From a virus: 59,687 nt of DNA. This document shows, piece after piece, positions 5,644 to 59,683 of the stretch (position 1 is its first letter; each line of letters starts with the position of its first letter). The notes beneath the pieces were generated by a model that was given only the letters and a program-made list of their open reading frames with translations, had not been told where the DNA came from and searched no databases. The stretch spans positions 1 to 59,687 of the IMG/VR virus record IMGVR_UViG_3300037584_004428. One strand, written 5' to 3'. A program made the translations under genes and the position numbers.

Positions 5644-5646
5644 GAT

Positions 5647-8049: not shown

Positions 8050-8052
8050 GAT

Positions 8053-11000
8053 ATGGCAATAAAATTTTCACAATTTATAACACAGACAAGCGCTTCTTCA
8101 CTTAGCCATATAGTAGGCTATAATGGGGCCGATAATATTCAAATAACTCCCGCAGACTTTTTCACAAGTTTTGTAACGGGTACAGCAGGACAAGTAGCAT
8201 ACTTTGATCCATCAAACAATTTAGCAGGAGAAAATGCTTTTTTCTGGGATAATACAAACAAGAGATTAGGTATTGGAACAAATAGTCCAAATCACAAAAT
8301 TCATGTGGTAGATGATTCTGTTACAACTGGAACCGGAACACTACTAGAGTTACAAAGTCCACCTATAAATAATGGTGGTAGCTTGAATTTAGATTTCAGA
8401 GTTAGTAGTGCTAATACAGATGATAGATATGTTGCTAGGATTTCAGGAATGAGAGAAGGAAATGGAGCATTAAGTCAATTACAATTTTGGACTGAAAGCT
8501 CAGGTTTATATCAAAGAATGACTATTACTTCTGAAGGTAACGTAGGTATTGGTACTACTAGTCCATCTTCTAAATTACAAGTATCAGGAACTTTAGATGC
8601 AACTGGTATATCACAACTTGGGTCTAGTGGTGCTAATGTATTTTTAACATCTTCTAGCGCAGGAAATGTAGGTGTTGGTACGAGTAGTCCTACAGATAAA
8701 TTAGATATAGCTGGTGCTGCAAGATTTACCTCTAATATAAGTTTTGATAGCGGAAAAGCTGGTAGAATTTATAAAGCTAGTAATCACGGTTTAGCAATAC
8801 ACGGAGTTACGGGAACTGAAAATGACTTTGCAATGTTTACTCCTACAGGTATGCTTAAAATAGTTGTACCAACTGGAACTAATAATTTAATTTTAAATCG
8901 TGATAACGGCAATGTCGGTATTGGAACAACTAGTCCTGATTCTTTATTACACGTTGCTGCAGATGTTAGCAGTGCGAACACAGGTACTATAACAATAGAA
9001 GGTAGGCCAACTGGTTTTTTAGGTGATGATATAGCAACAATTGATTTTCAGAATAACGGTAGTAAACGTGCTGATATTAGAATGGAAAGAGGTAATACAG
9101 CTACTGATTCTCAACTTGTTTTTTCTACTTCTGACGCAGGTACTCTTAATGATACATTAATAATAAATGAGGCAGGTGACGTAGGTATTGGTATTACTAG
9201 TCCTACAGCAAAGTTGCAAATTGCTGCTGATTTTTCTAGCTCACCTCAACCACTTATATTTTTATCTAATAGTGGAGCAAATAACCCTGGTGGAGGTAGT
9301 GAAATTATTTTTGGATCATCAACTTCTGCAACTACATCACTTTATAATGCAAAAATACAAGTTATTAGAAGTAGTTTAGATAATGGATCATCGGATTTGT
9401 TTTTTCAAACAACCCATGTAGCTACATCTCAATCGCCTAGTACAAAAATGACAATTAAATCTGATGGTAATGTCGGTATTGGAACAACTAGTCCAAATAG
9501 AAAATTAACACTAATTGATGATGGCGCAGCTAATGGATCACAAAATATAACCGCACAATTTTCAAATCAAACTTCAGGAGCAACTTCTAGCGCTTTATAT
9601 ATTGGTGCTAGTGCAGGTGCAGATTGGCTTATAGGTAAAAACATATACGGTGTTTCTAGCCAATCATATTTCCAAATAGGTAACCAAGCTGGAACTACAC
9701 CAGCTTTAACAATAAATCATACAACTAACAACGCAACTTTTACAGGAAGCGCAACTATAAGAAAATCTAGTTTAGGTGGCTCAACACCTATGGCTGATGG
9801 AAGTTTAGTTTTGGGTGCAGGGTCAACTGATTATTATAGTTTCAGGTTAGATTCTAATGCTGATTTATATTTAGATAAAATCTTTGGTGGTACTGCTGCT
9901 AATGTTTTAAGTATAGATAGAAGTTCTACTAATGGAAATATAACTTTTGCAGGAAATATTGAAGCATTAGGTTTGACTTTTTCAAATGGTGGAGATAGGT
10001 CTTTAACAGGTCCACAAAATGAAGATTTAATAATTAATGCTAGACCAAATGACACAACAGAGGGTTTGCATTTACAAATAAATGGCACAGATAAATTATT
10101 TATTAAACAAGATGGCTCTTCAACTTTTGCAGGTTTAGTAAAAGCACCTTTTTTTACAACCGATGGTGGTCGTGGATTCAAACAAAATAGTGTAGCTTTT
10201 GTAGGCACATATTCAAATGGCGCCGCTGCTAATGGAGCAAATGATTTAGGTAGTACAACAAATAAATGGCGAGATATTTATATATCAGGAGATATTACTT
10301 CCTCAGCAGGGGGAGCAACTTTTGCAGATGCTATTAATACAACAGGTAAAGTTAATATTAATATACCAAGTGAGGGAAATTATTTTGAAGGTGGCTCTGC
10401 TAGTTTAAGAAGATTAACAATTACAACTGGGACAAACATTTCACCTCACGCATTACATACTTTTAATATTGCATCAAGTAATGGAAAATATAAATTTGAT
10501 GTTAATGGAACAGAGCAATTTTCTATTGACTCAAGTAACGCAACTTTTGCAGGGAATATAACTGTTAGTACAGCAAGTGCTACGTTAAATTTATTATCAG
10601 GCACAAATGGTAATAGTACAATTAATTTTGCGGATCCAGCAGATAACAATGTAGGTCAAATAATATATAGACATAACGGTAATAGCATGGCGTTTGATAC
10701 TAATGACGTGGAAAGAATGCGTATTGATTCTACAGGAAGTTTATTAGTTAATACAACTACAAATCAAGGTGTTGGTGGTGTTAGTATTGATCCTATCACA
10801 GCAGGACTTACAACTATTGTAAGCAATACAAGTAGCTCAGGTGCTGAATTATTTGTCGCAAGATTTAATTCAACTCAAGTAGGTAGTATTACATTAAGTG
10901 GTACAACTGGTACTCAATTTAACACATCCTCTGATTATAGATTAAAAGAAGATTTACAAGATTTTGCAGGATTAGATATGATTTCTAAAATACTTGTTTA

Positions 11001-11202
11001 TGACTTTAAATGGAAATCAGATGACAGTAGGTCTTATGGTGTAATGGCTCACGAACTTGAAGAAGTTTTACCTCAAGCAGTTAGTGGAGAAAAAGATGCA
11101 GAAGAAATGCAAGGAGTAGATTACAGTAAAATAGTACCACTATTAATTAAATCAATACAAGAGCTTAAGGCAGAAGTAGAAGATTTAAAATCAAAAATAT
11201 AA
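8053..11202 (+). CDS. Tail fibre/spike protein A3 with S74 intramolecular chaperone (1049 aa)
   Basis: Third member of the set with the same N-terminal anchor, then many GNVGIGT/NATFAGN-type repeats. Unlike A1 and A2, the last 90 residues form a peptidase S74 (endosialidase-type) chaperone: SDYRLK starting at S960 fits the self-cleavage motif SDxRxK, followed by YDFKWKSD, YGVMAHELEEVLPQAV and a terminal coiled coil (LLIKSIQELKAEVEDLKSKI). Such a domain trimerises the fibre and then cleaves itself off. A TATCTTTG promoter begins 3 nt after the stop. Confidence 0.9.
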   Translation: MAIKFSQFITQTSASSLSHIVGYNGADNIQITPADFFTSFVTGTAGQVAYFDPSNNLAGENAFFWDNTNKRLGIGTNSPNHKIHVVDDSVTTGTGTLLELQSPPINNGGSLNLDFRVSSANTDDRYVARISGMREGNGALSQLQFWTESSGLYQRMTITSEGNVGIGTTSPSSKLQVSGTLDATGISQLGSSGANVFLTSSSAGNVGVGTSSPTDKLDIAGAARFTSNISFDSGKAGRIYKASNHGLAIHGVTGTENDFAMFTPTGMLKIVVPTGTNNLILNRDNGNVGIGTTSPDSLLHVAADVSSANTGTITIEGRPTGFLGDDIATIDFQNNGSKRADIRMERGNTATDSQLVFSTSDAGTLNDTLIINEAGDVGIGITSPTAKLQIAADFSSSPQPLIFLSNSGANNPGGGSEIIFGSSTSATTSLYNAKIQVIRSSLDNGSSDLFFQTTHVATSQSPSTKMTIKSDGNVGIGTTSPNRKLTLIDDGAANGSQNITAQFSNQTSGATSSALYIGASAGADWLIGKNIYGVSSQSYFQIGNQAGTTPALTINHTTNNATFTGSATIRKSSLGGSTPMADGSLVLGAGSTDYYSFRLDSNADLYLDKIFGGTAANVLSIDRSSTNGNITFAGNIEALGLTFSNGGDRSLTGPQNEDLIINARPNDTTEGLHLQINGTDKLFIKQDGSSTFAGLVKAPFFTTDGGRGFKQNSVAFVGTYSNGAAANGANDLGSTTNKWRDIYISGDITSSAGGATFADAINTTGKVNINIPSEGNYFEGGSASLRRLTITTGTNISPHALHTFNIASSNGKYKFDVNGTEQFSIDSSNATFAGNITVSTASATLNLLSGTNGNSTINFADPADNNVGQIIYRHNGNSMAFDTNDVERMRIDSTGSLLVNTTTNQGVGGVSIDPITAGLTTIVSNTSSSGAELFVARFNSTQVGSITLSGTTGTQFNTSSDYRLKEDLQDFAGLDMISKILVYDFKWKSDDSRSYGVMAHELEEVLPQAVSGEKDAEEMQGVDYSKIVPLLIKSIQELKAEVEDLKSKI

Positions 11203-11204
11203 AG

Positions 11205-11212
11205 TATCTTTG
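11205..11212 (+). promoter_or_regulatory. Bacteroidetes-type -7 element TATCTTTG (lysis block)
   Basis: TATCTTTGTAAATA directly after the fibre A3 stop and 90 nt before the first membrane-protein gene (11302). Matches TAnnTTTG. Probably drives the 11302-14693 block. Confidence 0.6.
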
Positions 11213-11301
11213 TAAATATGAAATACACAACAACAACAACTTGGGGTAATGACTTAGAGGTCGAATACAAATATGTATAAATTAATAAATAGAATTGAAC
11301 C

Positions 11302-11715
11302 ATGAAATTCTACACTAAGAAAACAACAGAAGAAATTTTAGCTCAAATAGAGATTGATAAAATCAATGCGAAAAGTACAGCTAAAGAAATTGCATCGAAA
11401 CATTTAGGAAAGCATGCAATTAATTATATAACTATACTCGTTGTAATAGGTGTGGTTAGTTCTCAGTTTTTAGAAGGTGGTGCTTTAACAGCGGTTATTG
11501 GATTGGTTTCTACCGCAGCAATGGCTTTGATAGGTATACTCCAACATATTGTTGGCGCTAAAGAAAAAGAGGAGAAGCCAGAACTAGAGATAATAAAAAG
11601 TTTGATTAAAGAACTTTCAGACAAGGAAGATGACCCTATGCAGGTAGATGTGACTGACACAGATGTTACAGTAACTAAAGGAGAAAGCAAAGTAACAGCA
11701 AGTAAAAAGAAATAA
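11302..11715 (+). CDS. Two-TM membrane protein, holin candidate (137 aa)
   Basis: N-terminal 38 residues polar, then two hydrophobic segments at about 40-54 and 61-82 joined by a short turn (SSQFLEGGAL), then an acidic/Lys-rich cytoplasmic tail ending SKKK. Small size, two membrane spans and its position at the head of a block containing an endolysin are holin-like. It could equally be another inner-membrane lysis regulator. Next gene starts 1 nt downstream. Confidence 0.6.
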   Translation: MKFYTKKTTEEILAQIEIDKINAKSTAKEIASKHLGKHAINYITILVVIGVVSSQFLEGGALTAVIGLVSTAAMALIGILQHIVGAKEKEEKPELEIIKSLIKELSDKEDDPMQVDVTDTDVTVTKGESKVTASKKK

Positions 11716-11716
11716 C

Positions 11717-12022
11717 ATGGCACAAAAAATAAGCGAAGAAACAGAAGTAAGATTAGATTTAAAAACAATAGGAATTATTGTTGGCGGCGTAATCTCTCTT
11801 ACTAGCATGTACTTTGTTTTGAAGTCAGATATAGCATTGGCTATGGAAAGACCAGAGCCTGAAGTTTCTAAAATTGAGTGGTCTTATAAAGACGAGCTTG
11901 TGCGTTCGGAAATATCTAACACTAATGAAAAGGTGCAAGGTTTAGAAAAATCAGTAGAAGAAATAAAACAACAACTAAATAAAATTGACGAAAGACTATA
12001 TGAAATTAGCAAACAAAGATGA
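11717..12022 (+). CDS. Single-TM coiled-coil protein of the lysis block (101 aa)
   Basis: One membrane segment at about residues 17-35 (KTIGIIVGGVISLTSMYFVL), followed by a polar linker and a heptad-patterned coiled coil (residues 65-100, ending DERLYEISKQR). The topology is that of a membrane-anchored rod. Could act with the neighbouring holin candidate or span the periplasm like an inner-membrane spanin; no lipoprotein partner is evident. Ends 4 nt inside the next gene. Confidence 0.55.
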   Translation: MAQKISEETEVRLDLKTIGIIVGGVISLTSMYFVLKSDIALAMERPEPEVSKIEWSYKDELVRSEISNTNEKVQGLEKSVEEIKQQLNKIDERLYEISKQR

Positions 12023-12342
12023 GATGTGCAATAATTGCCTTTTTCCTGACATGTGTCACTTTTGCTCAAACTGATATTGAAATAATTCAGTTTAGCGCCT
12101 CTTTCGTTAAAGATAATGAGATTGAATTAAAAAGTTTTAGATATGATTCTGAAACTATCTATATGTCTGACTCCAAAGACAAATTCAATAAATACAATAT
12201 TAAATACATACCAACCATTATATTATTTTATAATGACGAAGAATACTATAGGGTAGAGTCAGGCATAAGTTTGAAATTGCCGGATAACTCTATTGAATTA
12301 ATAGAAAACAAAATAGAAGAAATTATAGAAAGTAAATTTTAA
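12019..12342 (+). CDS. Secreted thioredoxin-fold protein lacking CxxC (107 aa)
   Basis: A short N-terminal hydrophobic segment with a likely cleavage after FAQ (about residue 16) suggests export. The rest follows a thioredoxin beta-alpha layout: IEIIQFSASF (strand and active-site position), a helix and middle strand TIYMSD, then KYNIKYIPTIILFYNDEEYY with the characteristic cis-proline (P65). The dithiol CxxC is replaced by SASF, so it cannot be an oxidoreductase. Role unknown; possibly a binding or assembly module. Overlaps the preceding gene by 4 nt and lies 2 nt before the barrel protein. Confidence 0.6.
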   Translation: MRCAIIAFFLTCVTFAQTDIEIIQFSASFVKDNEIELKSFRYDSETIYMSDSKDKFNKYNIKYIPTIILFYNDEEYYRVESGISLKLPDNSIELIENKIEEIIESKF

Positions 12343-12344
12343 AT

Positions 12345-13574
12345 ATGAAACAATTAATAACATTAATATTTATACTATCTACATTAAATGTATCATCACA
12401 AGTTATAGATACAGATAAAAAGCTAGAAGATAAGATTGTAAAAAAATATAAAGCAAAAGATTTTTTTAAAAACATTTATAAAGATATTTTTAAATACAGC
12501 ACTGTTTATGTGGCTGGAAACGTAGACAATCCTAAAGAAAATCCTAAAGATTATTTTGTGCGAACCAACCCCGATGGTAACCTATACACTCCACCCGTCG
12601 TAGTTGACGGCACGGACTATTACGACTTTGATTATCGTTATGGTTTTGGAATCCGTAAGTTAGCACGTTTTGATTACGAGATCAAAGGGAAACACTACTA
12701 CGATGGCACAGAAAACAATATTGGACTATCAGCACCTAACTCACCTGTTGATGGCTTAGAGTACACGATTCATTATGAAAAAGAAAGATCTAGAGACGAT
12801 GTCTTTACAAATCATAGATATTTCGTTAAACACAGTGGTAAGTATCACATAGCAAAACTAGAAAGTAGAAAGCAAGGAAAAGTAGATTTTAATTACAAGT
12901 CGGCAGAGTTAAGAGCAAAACTCCCAATAGGTAAAAAACTTTCTTTATCCGCCGGTGCAATTTACAGGACTCATTTGCGTCCTTATGGATACAACCCGGT
13001 AGAAATATGGCTTAATGAAACAGATGAGAATGGATGGCCAATCAACCCTTGGTATTCTTTAGGATTTCAATATGGCTATGATGATATATATTACACACAA
13101 GAAGATCAAAATGGCAATGAAATATCAGATTGGTATTGGGTGAATCCTCAAGGTGAGGTTGTGGCTCATACAGATTTAGAATTTAGAGATACAGTATTTG
13201 CAGATCTAATGAATAGGTATAATGAGGAGATTTGGAGTGAGCTAGATACATTTGGCGTTGTCAGCCCAATTGTCGGATTTGACGTGTACCACTACAAAAG
13301 AAATTTCTGGTTACACGCGTTTGGATCATATTTACTACCTTTTCATAAGTATGTGCAGGGAGACGAATCTTTCAGTTATTTGAATCGAAATAATTGGGGG
13401 CTCGGAGGATTAAGAGAAGATGTAGATTTAGAACAATGGGAGGATTGGCAGGCAGGCATTTCATTTGGATGGAAGCTGTCAAAAAATATTGGGGTATTTG
13501 TTGAGGGAGAATATACAAGGTTTTGGGATTCTGAAATCTATCAATCTTCTGTAGGTATAAACTTTAGATTATGA
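12345..13574 (+). CDS. Secreted protein, probable outer-membrane beta-barrel (409 aa)
   Basis: Begins with a good signal peptide (MKQLITLIFILSTLNVSSQ). The mature part has many alternating aromatic/polar strands (SAELRAKLPIGKKLSLSAGA, FWLHAFGSYLLPFHKY, DWQAGISFGWKLSKNIGVF, VFVEGEYTRFWDSEI) and ends SSVGINFRL, typical of outer-membrane barrel C termini. Not a recognised enzyme. A phage barrel could alter the host surface, for example receptor masking, or take part in outer-membrane disruption. Region 12541-12660 is GC-richer (about 43%) than its flanks, hinting at separate origin. Overlaps the next gene by 4 nt. Confidence 0.6.
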   Translation: MKQLITLIFILSTLNVSSQVIDTDKKLEDKIVKKYKAKDFFKNIYKDIFKYSTVYVAGNVDNPKENPKDYFVRTNPDGNLYTPPVVVDGTDYYDFDYRYGFGIRKLARFDYEIKGKHYYDGTENNIGLSAPNSPVDGLEYTIHYEKERSRDDVFTNHRYFVKHSGKYHIAKLESRKQGKVDFNYKSAELRAKLPIGKKLSLSAGAIYRTHLRPYGYNPVEIWLNETDENGWPINPWYSLGFQYGYDDIYYTQEDQNGNEISDWYWVNPQGEVVAHTDLEFRDTVFADLMNRYNEEIWSELDTFGVVSPIVGFDVYHYKRNFWLHAFGSYLLPFHKYVQGDESFSYLNRNNWGLGGLREDVDLEQWEDWQAGISFGWKLSKNIGVFVEGEYTRFWDSEIYQSSVGINFRL

Positions 13575-13804
13575 TGAATAAAATACCTAACGATAAACTC
13601 CTTCATTTTTTTTGGGGAGGTATATCTGCTTTCCCCTTAATCTATTTATTCTCTATTTACGGATTTATTTTTTCCTTAACTTTGTATGCAGCAAAAGAAA
13701 TCATTTATGATTGGCGAATGGGTAAGGGTAATCCAGAGTTTTTAGATTTTGTTTATTCTAGTGTACCTGCGATATTTTATTTAATATTAAAATTAAATTT
13801 ATGA
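13571..13804 (+). CDS. Small membrane protein, YfiM/VanZ-like pattern (77 aa)
   Basis: Begins MNKIPNDKLLHFFWGG and continues through two membrane segments (about 19-38 and 58-75) with AAKEIIYDWRMGKGNPEFLDF between them. The order DKxxHF..G ... AxKExxxD ... G..E..D is shared by small membrane proteins found next to phage lysins and distantly with YfiM-type lipoproteins. No lipobox. Overlaps both neighbours by 4 nt (ATGA), so it is firmly in the lysis operon. Confidence 0.6.
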   Translation: MMNKIPNDKLLHFFWGGISAFPLIYLFSIYGFIFSLTLYAAKEIIYDWRMGKGNPEFLDFVYSSVPAIFYLILKLNL

Positions 13805-14262
13805 ATAGAATTAGTGATCACATAACGTATGCAGAAGCTATACATTCTAATACGGCTAAAAGAAAGAAGATAGATAACACACCAAACCCCACTCAAATCG
13901 CATCAATGGCAACAGTTGCTGAAATGGTTTTTGAGCCTTTAAGGTCTTGGGTTGGTGGGCCGATAAAAGTAAATTCATTTTTCAGGTCACCATCTTTGAA
14001 TGAAGCTATTGGCGGAGTTAGTTCCAGCCAGCATTGCAAGGGTCAAGCGATTGATTTAGATGATGTTTATGGATACAAATCCAATGCTGAAATGTTCATG
14101 TATATACGAGAGAATTTAGACTTTGATCAATTGATATGGGAGTTTGGAACTGATATGAATCCCAACTGGATTCACGTATCATATGTATCAAAAGATGAAA
14201 ATAGAAACAGATGTTTGAAGGCATATAAAGAAGATGATAAAACTAAATATAAAGTAATATGA
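13801..14262 (+). CDS. Endolysin, peptidase M15-type (153 aa)
   Basis: Zinc peptidase expected to cut peptidoglycan stem peptides in the periplasm during lysis. The M15_3 signature is clear: FFRSPSLNEAIGG (residues 60-72), SSSQHCKGQAIDLD with zinc ligands H78 and D85, LDFDQLIWEFG, and PNWIHVSY with the third ligand H125. No signal peptide, so release depends on a holin encoded nearby (11302 or 14259). Length is typical for single-domain phage M15 lysins. Overlaps neighbours on both sides by 4 nt. Confidence 0.9.
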   Translation: MNRISDHITYAEAIHSNTAKRKKIDNTPNPTQIASMATVAEMVFEPLRSWVGGPIKVNSFFRSPSLNEAIGGVSSSQHCKGQAIDLDDVYGYKSNAEMFMYIRENLDFDQLIWEFGTDMNPNWIHVSYVSKDENRNRCLKAYKEDDKTKYKVI

Positions 14263-14693
14263 GTTCTAAAAAAAAATTTTCTGAAACGAAAGTAGGTTTG
14301 TTTTTAAAAAAAACTGCACCAGGTATATTAGATACTGTGGGAGATGTGTTGCCAGATGCAGGAGTTATGGGATTGGTAAAGAATTTAATTAAAAAAGAAT
14401 CGGATGTAGTTTTGCCAGTTGAGGATAAAGAAAAGGCTATGAAATTATTAGAACTAGATATTATAGAGATGCAGGAAGTTAGTAAAAGATGGACGGCCGA
14501 TATGTCCAGTACATCTTGGATGGCTCAAAATGTAAGGCCAATGACGCTTATATTTTTTTCAGTAGCATATATAGTTGGGTGGTATGCGGGTTATGAATTA
14601 GACAGTGTGGCTGGAGTCCTTTCGCTTATTGTAGGAGCATACTTTGGTTCTAGAGGGATTGAAAAGGTAATGGGTAATAATAAACATAAATAG
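14259..14693 (+). CDS. Holin, 3TM-family-like (144 aa)
   Basis: The segment RWTADMSSTSWMAQNVRPMT (residues 77-96) followed by two hydrophobic helices (about 95-112 and 116-132) is the hallmark of the phage holin family that carries WxxDmxSxSWLxxNxRPxtL. The N-terminal region has an amphipathic segment around residues 28-44. Lies immediately after the endolysin with a 4-nt overlap, which strongly supports the assignment. It would permeabilise the inner membrane to release the M15 lysin. Confidence 0.8.
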   Translation: MSSKKKFSETKVGLFLKKTAPGILDTVGDVLPDAGVMGLVKNLIKKESDVVLPVEDKEKAMKLLELDIIEMQEVSKRWTADMSSTSWMAQNVRPMTLIFFSVAYIVGWYAGYELDSVAGVLSLIVGAYFGSRGIEKVMGNNKHK

Positions 14694-14697
14694 TAAA

Positions 14698-14832
14698 ATG
14701 GCTAGAAGAGTAATAAATCCTATTGAGTACAAAAGAGTAAGAAAAAAAAGACCCGGCATTCACGCTAAGACTAAAATTAGTAAATTAAAAAGTAGTAAAT
14801 TGTATAAAAAATTAAACATAGGTCAAGGATAA
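14698..14832 (+). CDS. Lys/Arg-rich mini-protein (44 aa)
   Basis: Begins MARRVINPIEYKRVRKKRPG and continues with Lys/Ser repeats. Starts 4 nt after the holin stop and its own stop overlaps the next ATG (TAATG). About 40% basic residues. No family recognised; nucleic-acid binding is a guess from charge. Confidence 0.55.
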   Translation: MARRVINPIEYKRVRKKRPGIHAKTKISKLKSSKLYKKLNIGQG

Positions 14833-14987
14833 TGGCAAAAAAAGGAAGAACAAAAGGAAACAAAATATGTCCAGCTGGAATAGCTTGGGCAAAAAGGACT
14901 TTCGATAGATACCCATCAGCTTATGCAAATATGGCTGCGAGTAAATATTGTAAAGACCCCAACTATGCAAAAAAAAGTAAAAAATGA
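14832..14987 (+). CDS. Basic mini-protein with YPSAYAN motif (51 aa)
   Basis: Contains ICPAGIAWAKRTFDRYPSAY and then ANMAASKYC. The pattern AxxKRxFxxYPSAYANxxAxxxC is shared by many small marine-phage proteins (from memory close to the DUF5872 group); function unknown. Two Cys (C13 and C40) may bind metal. Its stop overlaps the next gene's ATG by 2 nt. Confidence 0.7.
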   Translation: MAKKGRTKGNKICPAGIAWAKRTFDRYPSAYANMAASKYCKDPNYAKKSKK

Positions 14988-15103
14988 TAGATAAGAAAAA
15001 ATTAAGAACTATTTCAGCAGAATTAAAAAAAGCTTCAGCTCTTCATAAAGGGCAAGCGGCTAAAATTGACAGGATGCTTAAATCACTTAGTAAAAAAAAA
15101 TAA
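14984..15103 (+). CDS. Basic mini-protein (39 aa)
   Basis: Overlaps the preceding stop (ATGATAG). Product is one amphipathic basic helix (KLRTISAELKKASALHKGQ) ending SKKK. No family recognised. Support comes from tight coupling and the run of similar genes around it. Confidence 0.5.
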   Translation: MIDKKKLRTISAELKKASALHKGQAAKIDRMLKSLSKKK

Positions 15104-15128
15104 TAAATAACAAGTAAAAAAATAAATC

Positions 15129-15509
15129 ATGAAAATGAAAAAAACGATGCTTAATGCTGTGCAAAAAGTAAAAATGGCAATGGGTAAAAAAATGCCTAAG
15201 CTATCTATGGAATATCCAAAAATGAATAAAGGTTTCGATTCACTTCCTTCTGATGTTCAAAATAAGATTATGAAAAAAAAACCTAAAATGACTGAAAAAG
15301 GAATGGCTAAAAGAAAAAAAATAATAGCAGGAGTAAGAAAAGAAGGTGAGGCTAAAATAAGCAAAGAGGCAGAAGAAAGAAATAAGCGTATAGGTGGAAG
15401 AAGTGGAGTGCGTGAACCCCTGCCGCCTAGGATGGTAATGGCTAAAAAGAAGCCTAAAATGGCAATGAGAAAGAAGAAGCCTAAGATGGCAATGAGAAAG
15501 AAAAAGTAA
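15129..15509 (+). CDS. Lys/Met-rich repetitive basic protein (126 aa)
   Basis: Extremely basic: Lys makes up more than a quarter and Met about one-eighth. The C terminus contains an imperfect tandem (KKKPKMAMRK, repeated as KKPKMAMRKKK), and the middle holds GFDSLPSDVQNKIMKKKPKM, where FxxLPxxVQxKI is a pattern I associate with other small phage virion proteins. Protamine- or histone-tail-like composition suggests DNA condensation, but this is inference from composition. Stop overlaps the metallopeptidase ATG by 1 nt. Confidence 0.65.
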   Translation: MKMKKTMLNAVQKVKMAMGKKMPKLSMEYPKMNKGFDSLPSDVQNKIMKKKPKMTEKGMAKRKKIIAGVRKEGEAKISKEAEERNKRIGGRSGVREPLPPRMVMAKKKPKMAMRKKKPKMAMRKKK

Positions 15510-15874
15510 TGGCATTTAACTTAAAAAATATTTATGAGGTTTTCGGACACAATAAAGAATTCTCTAACGGGGATAGAATTGTTGTGGAAAAAAAAATGTC
15601 TAAAAAAGTTTTAGGTCAAATAAATCCCAACGGTGTAATTGAAATAAATAAAGATGCAACACCTGCAAATAAACGCAGGGCGGTAAAGCATGAGCAAGTT
15701 CATTTAGATCAAATTAGATTAGGCTTGTTGCATTTTGATCATAACAATTATCATTATAGAGAAAGCATAACCTCACCAATACAGACAATACCAAGTAGTA
15801 AGATTAACACACACGACAGAAGTTTGCCGTGGGAAATAGAAGCACACAATGGGCGAATTAAAAAAATGGGTTAA
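15509..15874 (+). CDS. Small HEXXH metallopeptidase-like protein (121 aa)
   Basis: Contains RRAVKHEQVHLDQIRLGLLH, a textbook HEXXH zinc site, and a later acidic residue in LPWEIEAH that would be the third ligand of a gluzincin. The preceding strand GVIEINKDATPANK is typical of the edge strand before such helices. At 121 aa it is a minimal catalytic domain. Could process virion proteins or attack host peptides; substrate unknown. It lies among the basic mini-proteins and overlaps the next gene by 26 nt. Confidence 0.65.
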   Translation: MAFNLKNIYEVFGHNKEFSNGDRIVVEKKMSKKVLGQINPNGVIEINKDATPANKRRAVKHEQVHLDQIRLGLLHFDHNNYHYRESITSPIQTIPSSKINTHDRSLPWEIEAHNGRIKKMG

Positions 15875-16088
15875 ACAAAAGTGGGTTCGTATTGGAACCG
15901 ATGGTACAATTAAAGGCCCTTGTGGTACATCTAAAAATAAAAAGAATCCTGACAGGTGCTTACCACTAGCGAAAGCCAGAAGATTAAGTAAAAAACAATT
16001 AGCAGCAACAGCTAAGAAAAAAAAGAGACAAGGCAGAGGTCGTCAATTTGTTTCTAATACTAGTGCTGCAAAAGTAAGAAACGCGTAA
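15849..16088 (+). CDS. Small basic phage protein, KWVxIGTDGxIKGPCG family (79 aa)
   Basis: Recognisable conserved start KWVRIGTDGTIKGPCGTSKN followed by PDRCLPLAKARRLSKKQ and an all-basic tail with QFVSNTSAAKV. Two conserved Cys. From memory this family is common in marine and cyanobacterial phages (annotated as a DUF) with no known function; basic charge suggests DNA or RNA binding. Begins inside the metallopeptidase gene (26-nt overlap) and lies 1 nt before the next gene. Confidence 0.75.
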   Translation: MGELKKWVKQKWVRIGTDGTIKGPCGTSKNKKNPDRCLPLAKARRLSKKQLAATAKKKKRQGRGRQFVSNTSAAKVRNA

Positions 16089-16089
16089 C

Positions 16090-16380
16090 ATGGCAACTAA
16101 AAAAAACATGCCTTGTAATAGAGTGAGGCCGTCTACAAGACCAGGTAAAAAGAAAATGGTAAAAGCTTGTGAGGGTGGTAGAGAGAAGTTAATTCACTTT
16201 GGAGCTAAGGGTTACGGTCATAATTATTCTGCAGCAGCAAGAAAAAGTTTTAGAGCAAGACATAAGTGCGGAACAGCCAAATCAAAACTAACAGCGAGAT
16301 ATTGGGCGTGTAAAAAATTATGGGCAGGTAAGGGTGGCAGCACCAAATCTTCACCTAAAAATAGACAGGGAAAATATTAG
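16090..16380 (+). CDS. Small basic phage protein, GGREKLIHFGAKGYGH family (96 aa)
   Basis: Carries KACEGGREKLIHFGAKGYGH and SFRARHKCGTAKSKLTARYW. The pattern GGxEKxIxFGxxG...RxSFxARH...K..AxYWAxKxxW is abundant in marine phages of several groups; function unknown. Cys residues in the CEGG and HKCG positions plus an extra pair may bind zinc. The TATCTTTG promoter for the next fibre block begins right at its stop. Confidence 0.75.
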   Translation: MATKKNMPCNRVRPSTRPGKKKMVKACEGGREKLIHFGAKGYGHNYSAAARKSFRARHKCGTAKSKLTARYWACKKLWAGKGGSTKSSPKNRQGKY

Positions 16381-16388
16381 TATCTTTG
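16381..16388 (+). promoter_or_regulatory. Bacteroidetes-type -7 element TATCTTTG (fibre set B)
   Basis: TATCTTTGTAAATA immediately after the preceding stop and 30 nt before the ATG at 16418; the 14-nt core is identical to the element at 11205. Expected to drive fibre set B. Confidence 0.62.
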
Positions 16389-16417
16389 TAAATATTTAAT
16401 AATCTAAAAAAACAATC

Positions 16418-17647
16418 ATGGCAATAATTCCGGATGCGCAACAATTCCATACACTGTCATCTACAGTGGATACTACAGAGAGAGGATCAGCATTGGCTAA
16501 TGCAAGTAGAGAGGTATACACAATGCAAGATATTAAGGAGTCAATATCAGCAATAGATGGTTCAGGTGTACAATACGCTGTTCCTGTATTTACAGATGCA
16601 AATACTTTAACTAGCTTACCAATAGGTAGCTCCGGTCAAGTTTTAACTTCAAATGGCTCTGGATCAAACCCTTCATTTCAAGCACTACAAGTAGTTACAA
16701 GTGGAGAAACAGCGTCAAACCCTAAATCATTATTTATTGGAACGCTTGCGTACGCTACAGCTTTAGCAGACGCAGATGTTGCAACGTTTCAAGGCAACTT
16801 GGCAGTTGGCCCTGGTGCTTTACAGACAAGTGTTCTTTCTAATAATGTAACAGGAATAGGTCTTTTTGCTTTTAGAAATCAAAATCAATCTGGTGGCTTA
16901 CCTTTTGCAACTGATGTAGACAGTGTAGCAGTAGGATCATACGCTGGATTTCTTCAAACGACTGCATCTAACAACACCTATGTTGGTCATGAAGCAGGAT
17001 ATTCAAACACCACTAGTAGTAACAACACTGCTATGGGTAATGAAGCATTGAAATCAAACAGTGGCGCTTCAAATACAGCTTTAGGAGGCGATGCTTTAAG
17101 AAATGCAACTGGTGTTAGTAACCACGTGGCTGTAGGTACAGGGGCTGGATCAAATAAAGCAACTGGAGGTAATTGTATTATTATTGGTAGCCAAGCACAA
17201 GCTTCAACTACTAGTATTAGCAATGAAATAACTTTAGGAGATTCTAACATTACATCTTTGAGATGTAATGTGACCTCTATTACATCTTTGTCTGACGAAA
17301 GAGATAAAACAGATATAGAAGATTTAGACACAGGATTAGATTTTATAAAATCATTAAAGCCTCGTAAATTTGTATGGGACAATAGACCTGTTGTTGTTAA
17401 AGAATTTTATAAAGATGAAGAAAATAATCCTCTAGAACGTGAGGTTGAAGTAACAAGCGTTAAAAAAGGTAGTAAGGATATAGGTTTTATAGCTCAAGAA
17501 TTAAAAACTATAGATAACGAATGGAGTCAGTTGGTAAATTCTAATAATCCTGATAAATTAGAAGCGAGTTACGGCAGGCTAATTCCAGTGCTTGTAAAAG
17601 CTATACAGGACTTATCAGCTGAATTAGATAAAAAACAAGATAAATAA
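16418..17647 (+). CDS. Tail fibre B1 with YadA-like repeats and S74 chaperone (409 aa)
   Basis: Anchor MAIIPDAQQFHTLSSTVDT (residues 1-19) is shared with B2 and B3. The body has repeats like NNTYVGHEAGYSN, NNTAMGNEALKSNSG and NTALGGDALRN, the NTAxGxxAL pattern of trimeric autotransporter head domains. A C-terminal S74 chaperone begins around S292 (SDERDK, fitting SDxRxK), with KPRKFVWDNR, DIGFIAQELK and a terminal coiled coil, and should be released after trimerisation. Likely receptor-binding fibre. Confidence 0.9.
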   Translation: MAIIPDAQQFHTLSSTVDTTERGSALANASREVYTMQDIKESISAIDGSGVQYAVPVFTDANTLTSLPIGSSGQVLTSNGSGSNPSFQALQVVTSGETASNPKSLFIGTLAYATALADADVATFQGNLAVGPGALQTSVLSNNVTGIGLFAFRNQNQSGGLPFATDVDSVAVGSYAGFLQTTASNNTYVGHEAGYSNTTSSNNTAMGNEALKSNSGASNTALGGDALRNATGVSNHVAVGTGAGSNKATGGNCIIIGSQAQASTTSISNEITLGDSNITSLRCNVTSITSLSDERDKTDIEDLDTGLDFIKSLKPRKFVWDNRPVVVKEFYKDEENNPLEREVEVTSVKKGSKDIGFIAQELKTIDNEWSQLVNSNNPDKLEASYGRLIPVLVKAIQDLSAELDKKQDK

Positions 17648-17669
17648 AAAACAAGATAAATAATATACT

Positions 17670-19091
17670 ATGGCTATTATACCTACAGGACAACAATTCC
17701 ATACACTGTCATCTACGGTAAGCACACTTGAAAGAGGTTCTGCTTTTGCAAATGCAAGCAGAGAATCATTCACAATGCAAGATATAATAGACACTGTGTC
17801 AGCAGGCGGTGGGGGATTTCCCTTTTTAATAGACACACAATCTTTATATGCTGGTTTTGTTCCTCAGTTTTTATCAGGAAACCCACAAGGAAACACATTT
17901 TTAGGAATCGATACTGGTCAATTTCACACTACAGGTGTGTCTAATACTGCTATAGGCTACAAAGCAATGGTTGGGGGATTTGATGGAGAGGGTGATGAAT
18001 GTGTGTTTATTGGTTATGAAGCAGGGACAGGCAATAATACTCAAGATAGAAACGTCGGTATTGGGTACCAAGCAGCGCTTTCCCCCTCTGGTAATGATAA
18101 CGTAGCTGTAGGTTATAACGCTCAATCAGGAAGTTCTAAAAATGTTTCAATAGGTTCACAAGCAGGAGCTAGTTTAAGTAATGGAGGTGAAAATATATTT
18201 ATGGGAGCAAATGCTGGAGATGCTTTAACATCTGGAGATAGAAACATAGCAATCGGTACTGATGCATTAGGAGCAGCTACTGGATGCAGTGAAAACATAG
18301 CTATAGGAGACGATGCTTTAGCTACAAATAATGTATCTGGTAATTGGAATGTAGGTGTAGGAAAAAGTGCTTTAAAAAAATTAACTAGCGGAGAAAGAAA
18401 TGTCGGTATTGGTGGATATTTTGCTGGTGACGCTTTAACAACGGGGTCGAATAATACAACAGTAGGCTTTTGGAGTTTAAGCGCGGAGCAAACAGGTAGT
18501 GGAAACGTTGCGTTAGGTGAAGCTGCATTAAAAAATCAAAATGCTTCAACATCCACCTCCAATGCAAATATAGGTATAGGATACAGCGCTGGAAGTTCTT
18601 TATCAACAGGAACTAATAATATCGTTATAGGTACTAATGCTCAAGCTTCAAGTGGCACTGTAACAAATGAAATAACTTTAGGTAATTCTAGCATTACAGT
18701 AATAAGGGCAGCTGTAACAAGCATAACTTCTTTATCTGACGAAAGAGATAAAACAGATATACAGGATTTAGATACTGGATTAGATTTCGTGAATGCATTG
18801 AAGCCCCGTAAATTTGTATGGGACAATAGAAGTGAAACTGTAACAGAGCAGCAGATTGATGAAAATGGAGATATTACTGACATAGAAAAAGAATTGATAA
18901 ATTCTAATAGAGGTAAAAAAGACTTTGGATTTATAGCTCAAGAAGTTAAATCATTAGATAATGACACTTTAAGATTAATATACGACGAAAATCCTGACAA
19001 ACTAGAAATGAGTTATGGAAAATTAGTACCAATATTAGTAAAAGCGATACAGGACTTATCAGCTAAAGTAACAGAATTAGAAAATAAATAA
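17670..19091 (+). CDS. Tail fibre B2 with YadA-like repeats and S74 chaperone (473 aa)
   Basis: Same plan as B1: anchor MAIIPTGQQFHTLSSTVST, a longer run of NxAIGxxA repeats (NTAIGYKAM, NVGIGYQAAL, NVAVGYNAQ, NIAIGTDALG, NIAIGDDALA and others), then the S74 domain from S356 (SDERDK), KPRKFVWDNR and DFGFIAQEVK. The 5' coding region contains 87 bp identical to B3 (17709-17795), so duplication or conversion was recent. Set B may allow alternative receptor-binding proteins in one genome. Confidence 0.9.
   Translation: MAIIPTGQQFHTLSSTVSTLERGSAFANASRESFTMQDIIDTVSAGGGGFPFLIDTQSLYAGFVPQFLSGNPQGNTFLGIDTGQFHTTGVSNTAIGYKAMVGGFDGEGDECVFIGYEAGTGNNTQDRNVGIGYQAALSPSGNDNVAVGYNAQSGSSKNVSIGSQAGASLSNGGENIFMGANAGDALTSGDRNIAIGTDALGAATGCSENIAIGDDALATNNVSGNWNVGVGKSALKKLTSGERNVGIGGYFAGDALTTGSNNTTVGFWSLSAEQTGSGNVALGEAALKNQNASTSTSNANIGIGYSAGSSLSTGTNNIVIGTNAQASSGTVTNEITLGNSSITVIRAAVTSITSLSDERDKTDIQDLDTGLDFVNALKPRKFVWDNRSETVTEQQIDENGDITDIEKELINSNRGKKDFGFIAQEVKSLDNDTLRLIYDENPDKLEMSYGKLVPILVKAIQDLSAKVTELENK
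17709..17795 (+). repeat. 87-bp direct repeat, copy 1 (fibre B2 anchor)
   Basis: Identical base for base to 19141-19227, 1432 bp downstream, in the same reading frame of B3. Includes all third codon positions, so it reflects recent duplication or gene conversion and could serve as a recombination site swapping fibre bodies. Confidence 0.9.
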
Positions 19092-19101
19092 ATAATATAC
19101 T

Positions 19102-20616
19102 ATGGCAATAATACCCACAGGACAACAATTTCACACCCTTTCATCTACGGTAAGCACACTTGAAAGAGGTTCTGCTTTTGCAAATGCAAGCAGAGAATCA
19201 TTCACAATGCAAGATATAATAGACACTATCTCAGCAACAGGAGGATCAATTGACGGCTCCGGTACAGCTAGAACAATTCCTTTTTTTACAGATGCAAATA
19301 CTATTGGTGATTCACCTTTAATAGTAAACACTTTTGTCCCTGGTGATGGTTTAGCGCAAATAAAATTTACTGACGGGTATAGGTTTATTATAAATAGGCC
19401 AGCAACTGTAACTAGTGGGGATATGGAATACGCAATTACTCAAGATGATGTTAATAAGGTTTCATTCGGCTGGGATGATGACGGGGGAGGTTTTGGATTT
19501 TTATATAACTGGTCTGGAGATGGCTGGAGAATGGGAGCTGCTGGAAACAATCCTATGCTTGAACTTGTTACAACTTCAGGATCAGAAAGTGTAAACTTGC
19601 ATAAACAGGTTAAATTTATAGATTATGGAAGTGGTACTTATACAGGCACAGCAGCTTATACTCTAGCAGTTGATGCTAGCGGTAATGTAATAGAAGAAAC
19701 TGCTGGAGGCGCCGGAGTTCCTTTTATTTTAGGGGGAACAAATTTTACAGACTCTCTTAAAGTTGGAGATACTACTACCGGTGTTTTAAGTGCTGCACAG
19801 TATAATGTAGGAGTAGGTGTTGCCTCTTTAGATGCTATCACAAGTGCCGATAGTTGTACGGCGGTAGGGTGGAGCAGTCTTGGTAATCTTACATCAGGAC
19901 AAGACAATACAGCTATGGGTAGTTTAGCAGGTGGCGGTATAAGTTCAGGACAGAACAATGTAAATATTGGAGCAAAATCATGTCAAAGTGGTAATATAAA
20001 TTTTAGCACAGGTGTGGGAGCTAGAACTTTGAGGTTTGGAGCAGTAGGAGCAGATAATAATGTAGCAGTAGGATTTAGCGCAGGTATACAAACGGAAGGA
20101 GCTCAAAACACAATGTTAGGAGCCCAAGCTGGAGGTAATTTAACTACAGGGGCTAACAATACAATTGTGGGATATAACGCAGAGCCATCATCCGCTACAG
20201 TGTCCAATGAAATAACTTTAGGTAATTCAAGTGTTTCTGTCATAAGGGCAGCTGTAACAAGTATAACTTCATTATCAGATGAAAGAGATAAAAAAGATAT
20301 AAAAGACATTACATACGGATTAGATTTTGTAAGTAAACTACAACCAAGAGAATTTGTATGGGATAACAGAGTAGAAAAAAGAGTTGTATTAGATGACGAG
20401 GGTAATGTAGAAAGTGAAATAGAGCATTACAGTGATAACAAAAACAAAAAAGATTTTGGGTTTATCGCACAAGAAGTTCAGGCTCATGATGACGATACCT
20501 TAAGATTAATATATGATGCCAATCCTGATAAATTAGAAATGAGTTATGGAAAATTAGTACCAATATTAGTAAAAGCTATTCAAGAATTAAAAGCTGAACT
20601 AGATTTGTTAAAATAA
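19102..20616 (+). CDS. Tail fibre B3 with S74 chaperone (504 aa)
   Basis: Same anchor as B2 (identical over the first 40 or so residues apart from a few). Residues about 75-200 are a distinct non-repetitive insert (VNKVSFGWDDDGGGFGFLYN region) not present in B1 or B2, followed by a shorter YadA-like stretch (NTAMGSLAG, NVAVGFSAG, NTMLGAQAGG) and the S74 chaperone from S392 (SDERDK), LQPREFVWDNR, DFGFIAQEVQ. The insert may be a receptor-binding head. Confidence 0.9.
   Translation: MAIIPTGQQFHTLSSTVSTLERGSAFANASRESFTMQDIIDTISATGGSIDGSGTARTIPFFTDANTIGDSPLIVNTFVPGDGLAQIKFTDGYRFIINRPATVTSGDMEYAITQDDVNKVSFGWDDDGGGFGFLYNWSGDGWRMGAAGNNPMLELVTTSGSESVNLHKQVKFIDYGSGTYTGTAAYTLAVDASGNVIEETAGGAGVPFILGGTNFTDSLKVGDTTTGVLSAAQYNVGVGVASLDAITSADSCTAVGWSSLGNLTSGQDNTAMGSLAGGGISSGQNNVNIGAKSCQSGNINFSTGVGARTLRFGAVGADNNVAVGFSAGIQTEGAQNTMLGAQAGGNLTTGANNTIVGYNAEPSSATVSNEITLGNSSVSVIRAAVTSITSLSDERDKKDIKDITYGLDFVSKLQPREFVWDNRVEKRVVLDDEGNVESEIEHYSDNKNKKDFGFIAQEVQAHDDDTLRLIYDANPDKLEMSYGKLVPILVKAIQELKAELDLLK
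19141..19227 (+). repeat. 87-bp direct repeat, copy 2 (fibre B3 anchor)
   Basis: Second copy of the repeat at 17709-17795. B1 encodes the same anchor with many synonymous differences, so the exact identity is limited to B2 and B3. Confidence 0.9.
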
Positions 20617-58580: not shown

Positions 58581-58785
58581 ATATAATTCTTTTAATGTCT
58601 TCTGATTTATAATTTCTTTGTTTAGGGTAATTGATATATCTGGTTTCAATGTCCCTAGCTTTTAATATTTCCTCATTCCATAACCTTTGATCTATTTTAT
58701 AATAAGTATAAAACACACCAGAAAAGAAACAGAATCCGCCCAACAAGGCACAGCATATTAAACGCTCTAATGTTTTAGTTTTCAT
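58570..58785 (-). CDS. Small membrane protein (71 aa)
   Basis: N-terminal membrane segment with cysteines (LERLICCALLGGFCFFSGVF), then a charged helical domain (LWNEEILKARDIETRYINYP). Single-pass, N-in or N-out unclear; may be a signal anchor. Overlaps the upstream gene by 4 nt. Confidence 0.58.
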   Translation of the reverse strand: MKTKTLERLICCALLGGFCFFSGVFYTYYKIDQRLWNEEILKARDIETRYINYPKQRNYKSEDIKRIIYGN

Positions 58786-59030
58786 AGTTCTTCTTTATTG
58801 TCAATTTTATAAATTCCTTTATTATATATGAATAAAGCTTCTTTAATTGAATTTACAGGTGTTGTGTTTAGAATCTCACCTCCTACCTCAAATGTTATTT
58901 CATTTTTTGCGGTTAATACATATTTACCGAAATCATAATCCCAAACACCTTTATTGAATTGAATTTTACAATGCCCCTGTAATTCTAACTCCCCTTTGGT
59001 TTTTACTTTTTTTAATATGATTTTTTCCAT
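58782..59030 (-). CDS. Hypothetical beta-rich protein (82 aa)
   Basis: MEKIILKKVKTKGELELQGH followed by short strands (YDFGKYVLTAKNEITFEVGG) and NSIKEALFIYNKGIYKI. No family recognised. Its start codon lies in the first copy of the 24-bp leader repeat, and tRNA-like element 1 lies immediately upstream. Confidence 0.6.
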   Translation of the reverse strand: MEKIILKKVKTKGELELQGHCKIQFNKGVWDYDFGKYVLTAKNEITFEVGGEILNTTPVNSIKEALFIYNKGIYKIDNKEEL

Positions 59031-59051
59031 AATATTAATTTTAATTGTTAG
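59028..59051 (-). repeat. 24-bp leader repeat, copy 1
   Basis: Plus-strand CATAATATTAATTTTAATTG followed by TTAG; identical to 59251-59274 and 59502-59525. On the coding strand it is CTAACAATTAAAATTAATAT then TATG, ending with the start codon. Probably a translation-initiation leader used repeatedly. Confidence 0.9.
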
Positions 59052-59053
59052 TT

Positions 59054-59092
59054 AGTGTGGGCGGAATCGAACCGCCCTACAACCATTACACC
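59054..59092 (-). ncRNA. tRNA-elbow-like RNA element 1 (39 nt)
   Basis: On the minus strand: GGTGT, unpaired AATGGTTGTA, GGGCGG, loop TTCGATT, CCGCCC, ACACT. The hairpin GGGCGG-TTCGATT-CCGCCC has an exact tRNA T-loop (7 nt, TTCRANN), the outer GGTGT/ACACT stem stacks like an acceptor (one G-U pair), and ATGGTT resembles a D-loop with G18-G19. D-stem, anticodon arm and CCA are absent, so it is not a tRNA. Located between the 52-aa and 82-aa genes. Confidence 0.65.
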
Positions 59093-59094
59093 TT

Positions 59095-59253
59095 TTAATA
59101 TCCGCTATAAAATCCGCCCTCAAAATCAAAATAGGTTGGGAGTTCTTTTTTCTCTAGCTTTGCAATCTTCTTTTTAAGTTTGGCTATTTTCTTTTTTCTA
59201 TTTTTTTCAATTCGATCTAAATACGCTAAATATCTTTTAAATTTATCATTCAT
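59095..59253 (-). CDS. Small basic coiled-coil protein (52 aa)
   Basis: Very basic N-terminal helix (YLAYLDRIEKNRKKKIAKLK) continuing as heptads, then KELPTYFDFEGGFYSGY. Starts with the second copy of the 24-bp leader; the TAA stop leads straight (TAAAAG) into tRNA-like element 1. No family recognised; nucleic-acid binding is possible by charge. Confidence 0.6.
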   Translation of the reverse strand: MNDKFKRYLAYLDRIEKNRKKKIAKLKKKIAKLEKKELPTYFDFEGGFYSGY

Positions 59254-59274
59254 AATATTAATTTTAATTGTTAG
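59251..59274 (-). repeat. 24-bp leader repeat, copy 2
   Basis: Identical to the copies at 59028 and 59502. Here it follows the previous gene directly, the stop codon TAA lying inside the repeat, with no tRNA-like element between the genes. Confidence 0.9.
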
Positions 59275-59504
59275 TAATCTCCTTTTTTAATTTGTTCCGC
59301 TTTATATTGTGCCTCAAACAAAAGATCAACCAATTCGTCGAGGGCTTCAGTTTTAGAAGTATAATGACAGCCTTTGTCGCTATATTCCCAACCCTCCCAC
59401 TTATCGATTTGGTTATCTGTTTGTTCCTCTCTATCGTAAATCTCATCTTTGATTTTTTCAATGTGATTTTCCAATTGAGTTATAATTTTGGTTAATTGTG
59501 CCAT
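59271..59504 (-). CDS. Small acidic coiled-coil protein (77 aa)
   Basis: Start set at ATG 59504 because it sits in the third 24-bp leader; a longer in-frame version would cross tRNA-like element 2. MAQLTKIITQLENHIEKIKD is coiled coil, then a middle segment with EGWEYSDKGCHYTSKTEALD and a helical end. No family recognised. Confidence 0.62.
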   Translation of the reverse strand: MAQLTKIITQLENHIEKIKDEIYDREEQTDNQIDKWEGWEYSDKGCHYTSKTEALDELVDLLFEAQYKAEQIKKGDY

Positions 59505-59525
59505 AATATTAATTTTAATTGTTAG
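59502..59525 (-). repeat. 24-bp leader repeat, copy 3
   Basis: Identical third copy, covering the start codon of the 77-aa gene and adjoining tRNA-like element 2. Confidence 0.9.
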
Positions 59526-59527
59526 AT

Positions 59528-59567
59528 GATAAAGGGGGAATCGAACCCCCTCGAGAACCATTTTATC
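59528..59567 (-). ncRNA. tRNA-elbow-like RNA element 2 (40 nt)
   Basis: On the minus strand: GATAAA, unpaired ATGGTTCTCGA, GGGGG, loop TTCGATT, CCCCC, TTTATC. Same plan as element 1: a T-arm with identical T-loop, a closing stem (6 perfect pairs) and an unpaired ATGGTT. Both stems have entirely different sequences from element 1 but keep pairing, which argues for a selected RNA structure. Located between the 37-aa and 77-aa genes, following TAAAAG. Confidence 0.68.
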
Positions 59568-59569
59568 TT

Positions 59570-59683
59570 TTAAAATACCCTTATTAAGTGGCTAACTAGC
59601 ACAAGCAAACCGCACACAAAGAGCGAGGCTAAACCCATTAATAAGCCGTTAATAATTCCGTTTAGTAAAGTTTTATTTTTCAT
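59570..59683 (-). CDS. Small single-TM protein (37 aa)
   Basis: One hydrophobic helix (LLNGIINGLLMGLASLFVCG region, residues 6-30) with short polar ends (MKNKT; SHLIRVF). Starts 5 nt from the window edge; upstream context missing. Its stop runs into tRNA-like element 2. No family recognised. Confidence 0.5.
   Translation of the reverse strand: MKNKTLLNGIINGLLMGLASLFVCGLLVLVSHLIRVF

Follow-up and report, generated by a model that had tools for sequence, protein, structure and literature searches.

In tRNA, G18 and G19 dock onto the T-loop, and RNase P measures the elbow together with the acceptor/T helix. The mascRNA and menRNA of mammalian MALAT1 and NEAT1 are tRNA-like and are processed by RNase P and RNase Z, but they are not used as tRNAs. 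In mitochondrial 'tRNA punctuation', full tRNAs are cut by RNase P and RNase Z. Phage RNAs that are cut by host RNase P include the C4 antisense RNA of P1 and P7, the M3 RNA and the T4 pre-tRNAs (PMC11143913). In phage Wildcat, RNA-seq revealed 'shark-tooth' dips at gaps of approximately 100 bp in the region that forms the highest-expressed early block; only partial motifs were described for these gaps, promoters and terminators were not found, and the pattern was left unexplained (PMC7474061). The SAS/ESAS elements of cluster K mycobacteriophages combine an intergenic inverted repeat with a strongly conserved ribosome-binding sequence before small genes, although their authors doubted that the repeat forms an RNA hairpin (PMC3203893).

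We analyzed an IMG/VR virus record of 59,687 bases, the whole of which is referred to here as the window. A sequence-only reading had proposed that it contains two compact RNAs with constant loops and rebuilt but still paired stems, and inspection of the sequence confirmed this: both elements lie on the minus strand, and their order, coordinates and stems match the first description. Element 1, from 59092 to 59054, reads GGTGT-AATGGTTGTA-GGGCGG-TTCGATT-CCGCCC-ACACT, in which the outer stem GGTGT/ACACT (59092-59088 paired with 59058-59054) encloses the linker AATGGTTGTA and a T-arm of stem GGGCGG/CCGCCC and loop TTCGATT. Element 2, from 59567 to 59528, has the same arrangement, GATAAA-ATGGTTCTCGA-GGGGG-TTCGATT-CCCCC-TTTATC, with outer stem GATAAA/TTTATC, linker ATGGTTCTCGA, T-stem GGGGG/CCCCC and an identical T-loop. 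A composite pattern of the two occurred at only these 2 sites in the window and at none in dinucleotide shuffles, and a structural scan similarly returned 2 matches as compared to 0 in 100 dinucleotide shuffles. When each element was folded by itself at minimum energy and with no constraints (z of -1.2 to -2.3), the T-arm was recovered and the full outer stem was not; support for the outer stem therefore comes from the comparative evidence, and this is strong.

Beyond what the first description gave, the start of either element is exactly 2 nt past a stop codon, and the next ATG follows after approximately 24 nt (Table 1). Directly after each element, an exact 23-nt repeat, the leader TAACAATTAAAATTAATATTATG, runs into the start codon of the next gene. 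Judging from their size and position, the flanking genes are probably early genes, and family searches with them returned nothing informative.

Table 1. Features of the window around the two mini-tRNA elements.
Feature	Position	Strand	Evidence or remark
Mini-tRNA element 1	59054..59092	(-)	sequence; R1 covariance match
Mini-tRNA element 2	59528..59567	(-)	sequence; R1 covariance match; 40/40 in relative L350
Leader TAACAATTAAAATTAATATTATG after element 1	59028..59050	(-)	exact repeat; includes 82-aa gene start codon
Leader TAACAATTAAAATTAATATTATG after element 2	59502..59524	(-)	exact repeat; includes 77-aa gene start codon
Leader TAACAATTAAAATTAATATTATG, third copy, before 52-aa gene, no mini-tRNA	59251..59273	(-)	exact repeat
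37-aa ORF, membrane-like	59570..59683	(-)	element 2 starts 2 nt past its stop codon
77-aa gene downstream of element 2	59271..59504	(-)	no known family
52-aa gene	59095..59253	(-)	element 1 starts 2 nt past its stop codon
82-aa gene downstream of element 1	58782..59030	(-)	no known family

The terminase relatives of the window infect Flavobacterium, Cellulophaga, Maribacter and Tenacibaculum. In the closest relative (L350), the 77-aa protein is 91% identical and element 2 is identical, while the cassette with element 1 is absent. Both elements are missing from more distant relatives; no mini-tRNA copy was found in MW202828 (72% terminase identity), and no relatives of the 82-aa gene were found in viral contigs or phage records. 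Since one element or both are missing even from the closest relatives, the elements are not essential at a given gene, and this presence and absence indicates that they are gained and lost along with small accessory genes. Comparison of the leader junction with that of L350 suggests that cassettes of genes have been gained or lost beside ACTAAC. Elsewhere, the window carries a chaperonin (Cpn60) gene at 51-1217, probably truncated by the contig edge, and MW202828 likewise has groEL and a GroES-like gene. The stretch 3421-20616 encodes several long proteins that resemble tail fibres and consist of repeated GNVGIGTTSP motifs; some of these proteins end in an SDERDK...RKFVW chaperone-like C-terminus.

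To look for further copies, viral contigs were scanned with the loop pattern alone, applying no stem criterion; the counts from the viral and bacterial contig scans refer to the matches listed. Many sites were found at which stems of unrelated sequence surround constant loops, with a shared architecture of an acceptor-like stem of 5-7 bp, a strand of approximately 10 nt (AAYGGTT...), a T-stem of 5-6 bp and the loop TTCGATT. Pairing was tested, by permutation of flanks, on 124 unique viral matches, among the matches listed, to AATGGTTN{2,8}GGTTCGATTCC. A T-stem of at least 4 bp was present in 121/124 of these viral matches listed, as compared to 21.6 expected (3' flanks permuted), and an outer stem of at least 5 bp in 101/124 of the listed matches, as compared to 7.4 expected (maximum 15). 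In the same flank-permutation test, 48 of the 119 matches listed from bacterial contigs had such an outer stem, with 3.9 expected. In the fetched loci, a structural scanner returned 257 matches, and none in dinucleotide-shuffled or reversed sequence. Because these loci had been picked by pattern, the 84 of the 257 matches that lack the search motif represent the more independent evidence.

For a covariance model (R1), 31 elements were used, those of the window being left out. In its alignment (A2), 93% of cells were paired, the covariation score was 1.075 as compared to 0.197 when shuffled, and both sides changed in 12/13 pairs; the rows had been preselected for pairing, and the flank-permutation test (101/124) is therefore the cleaner result. 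R1 nevertheless found element 1 with 46.3 bits (E 5.6e-11) and element 2 with 35.6 bits (E 8.6e-8). The scans, the covariance model and the Rfam comparison together yielded many more copies than the two in the window, with stems that covary, and no recognition by Rfam models, tmRNA included; the alternative outcomes named in the sequence-only reading, two isolated copies, stems without covariation and decayed tRNAs, did not appear.

Among the matches listed, the phages and likely prophages that carry elements have hosts in Bacteroidota, Bacillota, Actinobacteria and Spirochaetes, with one archaeal contig in addition; several of the bacterial contigs are MAG bins, and their hosts are uncertain. 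Many phages among these matches have 5-12 copies on the coding strand with different stems and the same loops, and a Lachnospiraceae-binned contig has 9 copies at consecutive gene boundaries within 7 kb. The archaeal site (L251:5476-5514, in a Haloferax marinum contig) is a good canonical element in a haloarchaeal chromosome, located before a 164-aa ORF and followed by a second hairpin, and may belong to an archaeal virus or provirus. The families searched for the neighbour genes at this site and at L343 gave nothing informative.

The conserved parts of the elements are those that form the elbow in tRNA. The T-loop is TTCGATT in most copies, with the variants TTCGAGT, TTCGACT and TTCAACT. In the 73 copies that lack ATGGTT, were found by their stems only and have a linker of 10-11 nt, GG was present at linker positions 4-5 in 47/73, and no further position reached more than 9 within a single linker class. 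This GG corresponds to G18-G19 of tRNA. The stacked helix was 11-13 bp in 66/73 unselected matches with a bulge-free outer stem; that of tRNA is 12 bp. Thus, the elements share with tRNA (RF00005) a TTCRANN T-arm stacked on an acceptor helix, approximately 12 bp in total, and the D-loop GG, and they have the geometry of an RNase P substrate, an elbow with a coaxial acceptor/T helix of fitting length. An anticodon arm is absent, as the 10-nt linker gives no space for it. The widespread covariation, the GG register and the 11-13-bp helix therefore lend strong support to the proposal of a compact tRNA mimic that lacks both the anticodon arm and the D-stem, and we regard it as nearly certain that the elements form a genuine family of tRNA-elbow RNAs.

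ARAGORN and Rfam called no tRNA in the window or in the multi-copy loci. At relaxed E-values, Rfam returned only a weak similarity to the tmRNA T-arm (13-14 bits, with a cut-off of 47). A tmRNA, with a tRNA-like domain and a tag-peptide ORF, was considered and rejected on these grounds, ARAGORN having found none. It might also be supposed that the elements are decayed tRNA genes or remnants of integration (att) sites, since T-arm and acceptor remnants are common at prophage ends (PMC9897764). However, this is refuted by the covariation of multiple copies, up to 12 per phage, whose stems vary and are kept paired by compensation; the copies are on the sense strand only and away from genome ends, and no tRNA was recognized. 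We give this explanation scarcely any credence. An encoded 3' CCA was expected after the element and was nearly absent (NCCA in 5/227). Many bacteria do not encode CCA, and its absence is thus weak evidence against tRNA likeness.

Placement relative to genes was determined for 219 elements, with ORFs called mechanically. A sense ORF ended between -12 and +15 nt from the element 5' end in 50%, as compared to 8% for antisense and 7% for random positions, and a stop before the element combined with a start at most 70 nt after it occurred in 27%, as compared to 2%. In the Mycobacterium phages Cuke, Fowlmouth, MrMiyagi and Indlulamithi, a canonical element was present in 30 of the 45 gene gaps of 75-125 nt, typically 8-10 nt past the stop codon and 35-53 nt upstream of the next start, and the structural scanner found no antisense elements in the annotated Mycobacterium phages. 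In the gap after the same gene, the stem was swapped with pairing kept (CCGGGG/CCCCGG in Cuke, CCCTGG/CCAGGG in MrMiyagi). The elements therefore sit, on the coding strand, at the junctions of neighbouring genes within a transcription unit, as in tRNA punctuation.

A hairpin between genes could also be an intrinsic terminator or a promoter. For a terminator, the U-run is missing (TTTT follows the element in only 8/252, so that 97% of copies have no T-run), the downstream flank is A-rich, and termination needs no conserved loops; we regard terminators or promoters as highly improbable. The ESAS of cluster K phages (17-bp conserved inverted repeats with a 4-13 bp spacer, beside SAS) was likewise rejected as an identity for the elements, whose stems covary and enclose a 10-nt linker and the whole T-arm, approximately 29 nt.

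The flanks of the elements are structured as well. A second, smaller hairpin begins 1-4 nt 3' of the element (84 position counts, with approximately 14 expected), and an upstream hairpin ends 0-4 nt 5' of it (48 elements, with approximately 19 expected). The second hairpin is often followed by a Shine-Dalgarno sequence and then ATG; in Cuke, the stop codon is followed by the mini-tRNA, ACG, the hairpin, AAAGGATGGAA and ATG. In the window, neither copy has a second hairpin, and the A/T-rich leader follows directly. The flanking hairpins are what excision of a mini-tRNA would need in order to protect both new mRNA ends. A site right after the stop codon and flanking hairpins would also suit a structural insulator or stabilizer that is not cut, a compact tRNA-like knot that blocks 3'-5' exonucleases or separates the translation of neighbouring genes. 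A plain hairpin would suffice for such a role, which leaves unexplained why the tRNA elbow is preserved exactly across hosts, with its GG register, TTCRANN loop and 11-13 bp, and why a second hairpin lies 1-4 nt past the 3' end, and we consider it unlikely. End protection, which had been suggested for these elements, survives solely as a part of processing.

Related folds occur in the group in which RNA-seq is available. MaryV (L356), which is classified as Mycobacterium virus Wildcat, has gaps of approximately 105 nt among its leftward genes. In at least 5 of them, the sequence folds into an acceptor of 7 bp, a hairpin of 5-6 bp, a joint of 5 nt and a T-arm of 5 bp whose 7-nt loop is UUCGAAC or UUCAAAC, a fold that amounts to a tRNA minus the anticodon arm; these folds likewise precede a hairpin and Shine-Dalgarno sequence. 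R1 found two canonical elements in MaryV; most of its gaps depart from the canonical form and have the three-way variant or just a plain hairpin. Two of the leftward gaps contain, in place of a tRNA-like fold, a 10-bp hairpin with the loop GGAACTAGGYCAAA, perhaps a second kind of punctuation and probably motif 2 of PMC7474061. The Wildcat dips are consistent with processing and do not prove it, as they could arise from library or folding effects instead.

Some copies form arrays. At L216:1550-2860 (-), at least ten tRNA-like units, some with the T-loop motif GGTGCAAATCC, are each followed by a second hairpin, with no evident genes between them; their helices are longer than the tRNA ruler, at 15 bp. 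At L128:900-1850 (-), six near-identical mini-tRNAs are spaced by approximately 150 nt in low-complexity, G-poor, A/C-rich DNA without ORFs, and CTGAAG follows each except the last. These forms may have another role, such as the release of small RNAs. Such arrays would also suit the binding of tRNA-handling proteins without processing (enzymes that modify the T-arm, such as TrmA/TruB, the CCA-adding enzyme, EF-Tu or a phage protein), whether as a decoy or for control of the downstream gene, and T-arm enzymes do act on T-arm minihelices. However, a decoy needs no fixed stop-start position in nearly every gap, and anticodon nucleases are excluded as a target because there is no anticodon loop. 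We find protein binding of this kind quite improbable, and the earlier suggestion of a decoy for tRNA-handling enzymes gained no support.

The observations to be explained are the sequence family, its covariation, the conserved elbow, the helix length, the strand, the position and the flanking hairpins. They are best accounted for, with a probability that we put at roughly 0.6, by cis-acting tRNA-like punctuation that is processed by host RNase P together with RNase Z or a similar activity. The element would be an anticodon-less tRNA mimic, with an acceptor/T-arm helix of approximately 12 bp and a D-loop remnant able to form the elbow; it would lie in cis within polycistronic phage mRNA, on the coding strand, past the stop codon of one gene and ahead of the next ribosome-binding site. 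Host RNase P would read the elbow and the 12-bp helix and cut at the element's 5' end, thereby releasing the 3' end of the upstream message just past its stop codon, and the 3' side would probably be released by RNase Z or a different activity that processes tRNA 3' ends. The outcome would be messages of one gene each, with ends that are defined and in many cases capped by small flanking hairpins, and from this we infer an effect on the stability of the mRNAs or on independent dosage of the genes.

What RNase P measures in its substrates makes it the best candidate, the breadth of hosts favours a universal host enzyme as the reader, and the CCA-less 3' ends make RNase Z a natural partner. Against this explanation count the near absence of encoded CCA, which bacterial RNase P often favours, the lack of one or both elements in the closest relatives of the window, the 15-bp helices of the L216 array, the arrays without evident genes between copies (L128, L216), the non-canonical form of most MaryV gaps and the other possible causes of the Wildcat dips. 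The suggestion of a mark for cleavage between genes has the placement, strand, flanking hairpins and RNA-seq dips in the group with related elements in its favour, and cleavage itself is the part that we infer. We lean slightly towards a broader reading, a genome-wide punctuation of phage RNA. In this reading, minimal tRNA mimics that lack an anticodon, and that in many cases follow the majority of genes in an early operon, would let the universal tRNA-trimming enzymes of the host divide a long early transcript into single-gene mRNAs with defined, hairpin-protected ends. It would extend to phages from many phyla of bacteria and perhaps to viruses of archaea.

These results extend the structured RNAs of phage genomes by a widespread family and offer a mechanism for a puzzle, namely how early transcript levels can differ gene by gene across gaps of approximately 100 bp without detectable promoters or terminators. 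Processing of this kind predicts that RNase P shapes phage mRNA, and the elements would serve as small, naturally occurring minimal substrates of RNase P and RNase Z; laboratory phages such as Cuke and MaryV on M. smegmatis mc2 155 offer a simple genetic handle.

A literature search that covered mainly openly available journal articles turned up no account of elements of this kind. Closest in setting are Wildcat intergenic motifs 1 and 2, which lie in early-gene gaps of approximately 100 bp with RNA-seq dips, the corresponding gaps of MaryV, of the same species, being tRNA-like; the motifs were given as partial sequence motifs, with no structure in the main text (PMC7474061). SAS/ESAS resemble the second hairpin and Shine-Dalgarno sequence beside the mini-tRNAs, whereas no T-loop/acceptor architecture was described for them and the sequence of their inverted repeat is conserved, not covarying (PMC3203893). 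The C4, M3 and T4 substrates of RNase P are a single antisense RNA or true tRNAs, unlike repeated intergenic mini-tRNAs (PMC11143913). Plant-virus tRNA-like structures and armless mitochondrial tRNAs are likewise reduced tRNA shapes that are read by tRNA enzymes; they are genome 3' ends or working tRNAs, with no sign of common descent with the phage elements. The mascRNA and menRNA share the tRNA-like shape and differ in being larger, single-locus 3' ends of mammalian lncRNAs with no known sequence relation. In mitochondrial punctuation, as proposed here, tRNA-shaped units lie between genes of a polycistronic transcript and their excision frees the mRNAs; the phage elements, known here from sequence, are in contrast phage-encoded, have no anticodon arm and are not tRNAs. 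The working principle thus has precedents in mitochondrial punctuation and mascRNA, while the elements fit no known family and their setting is not described in the literature searched.
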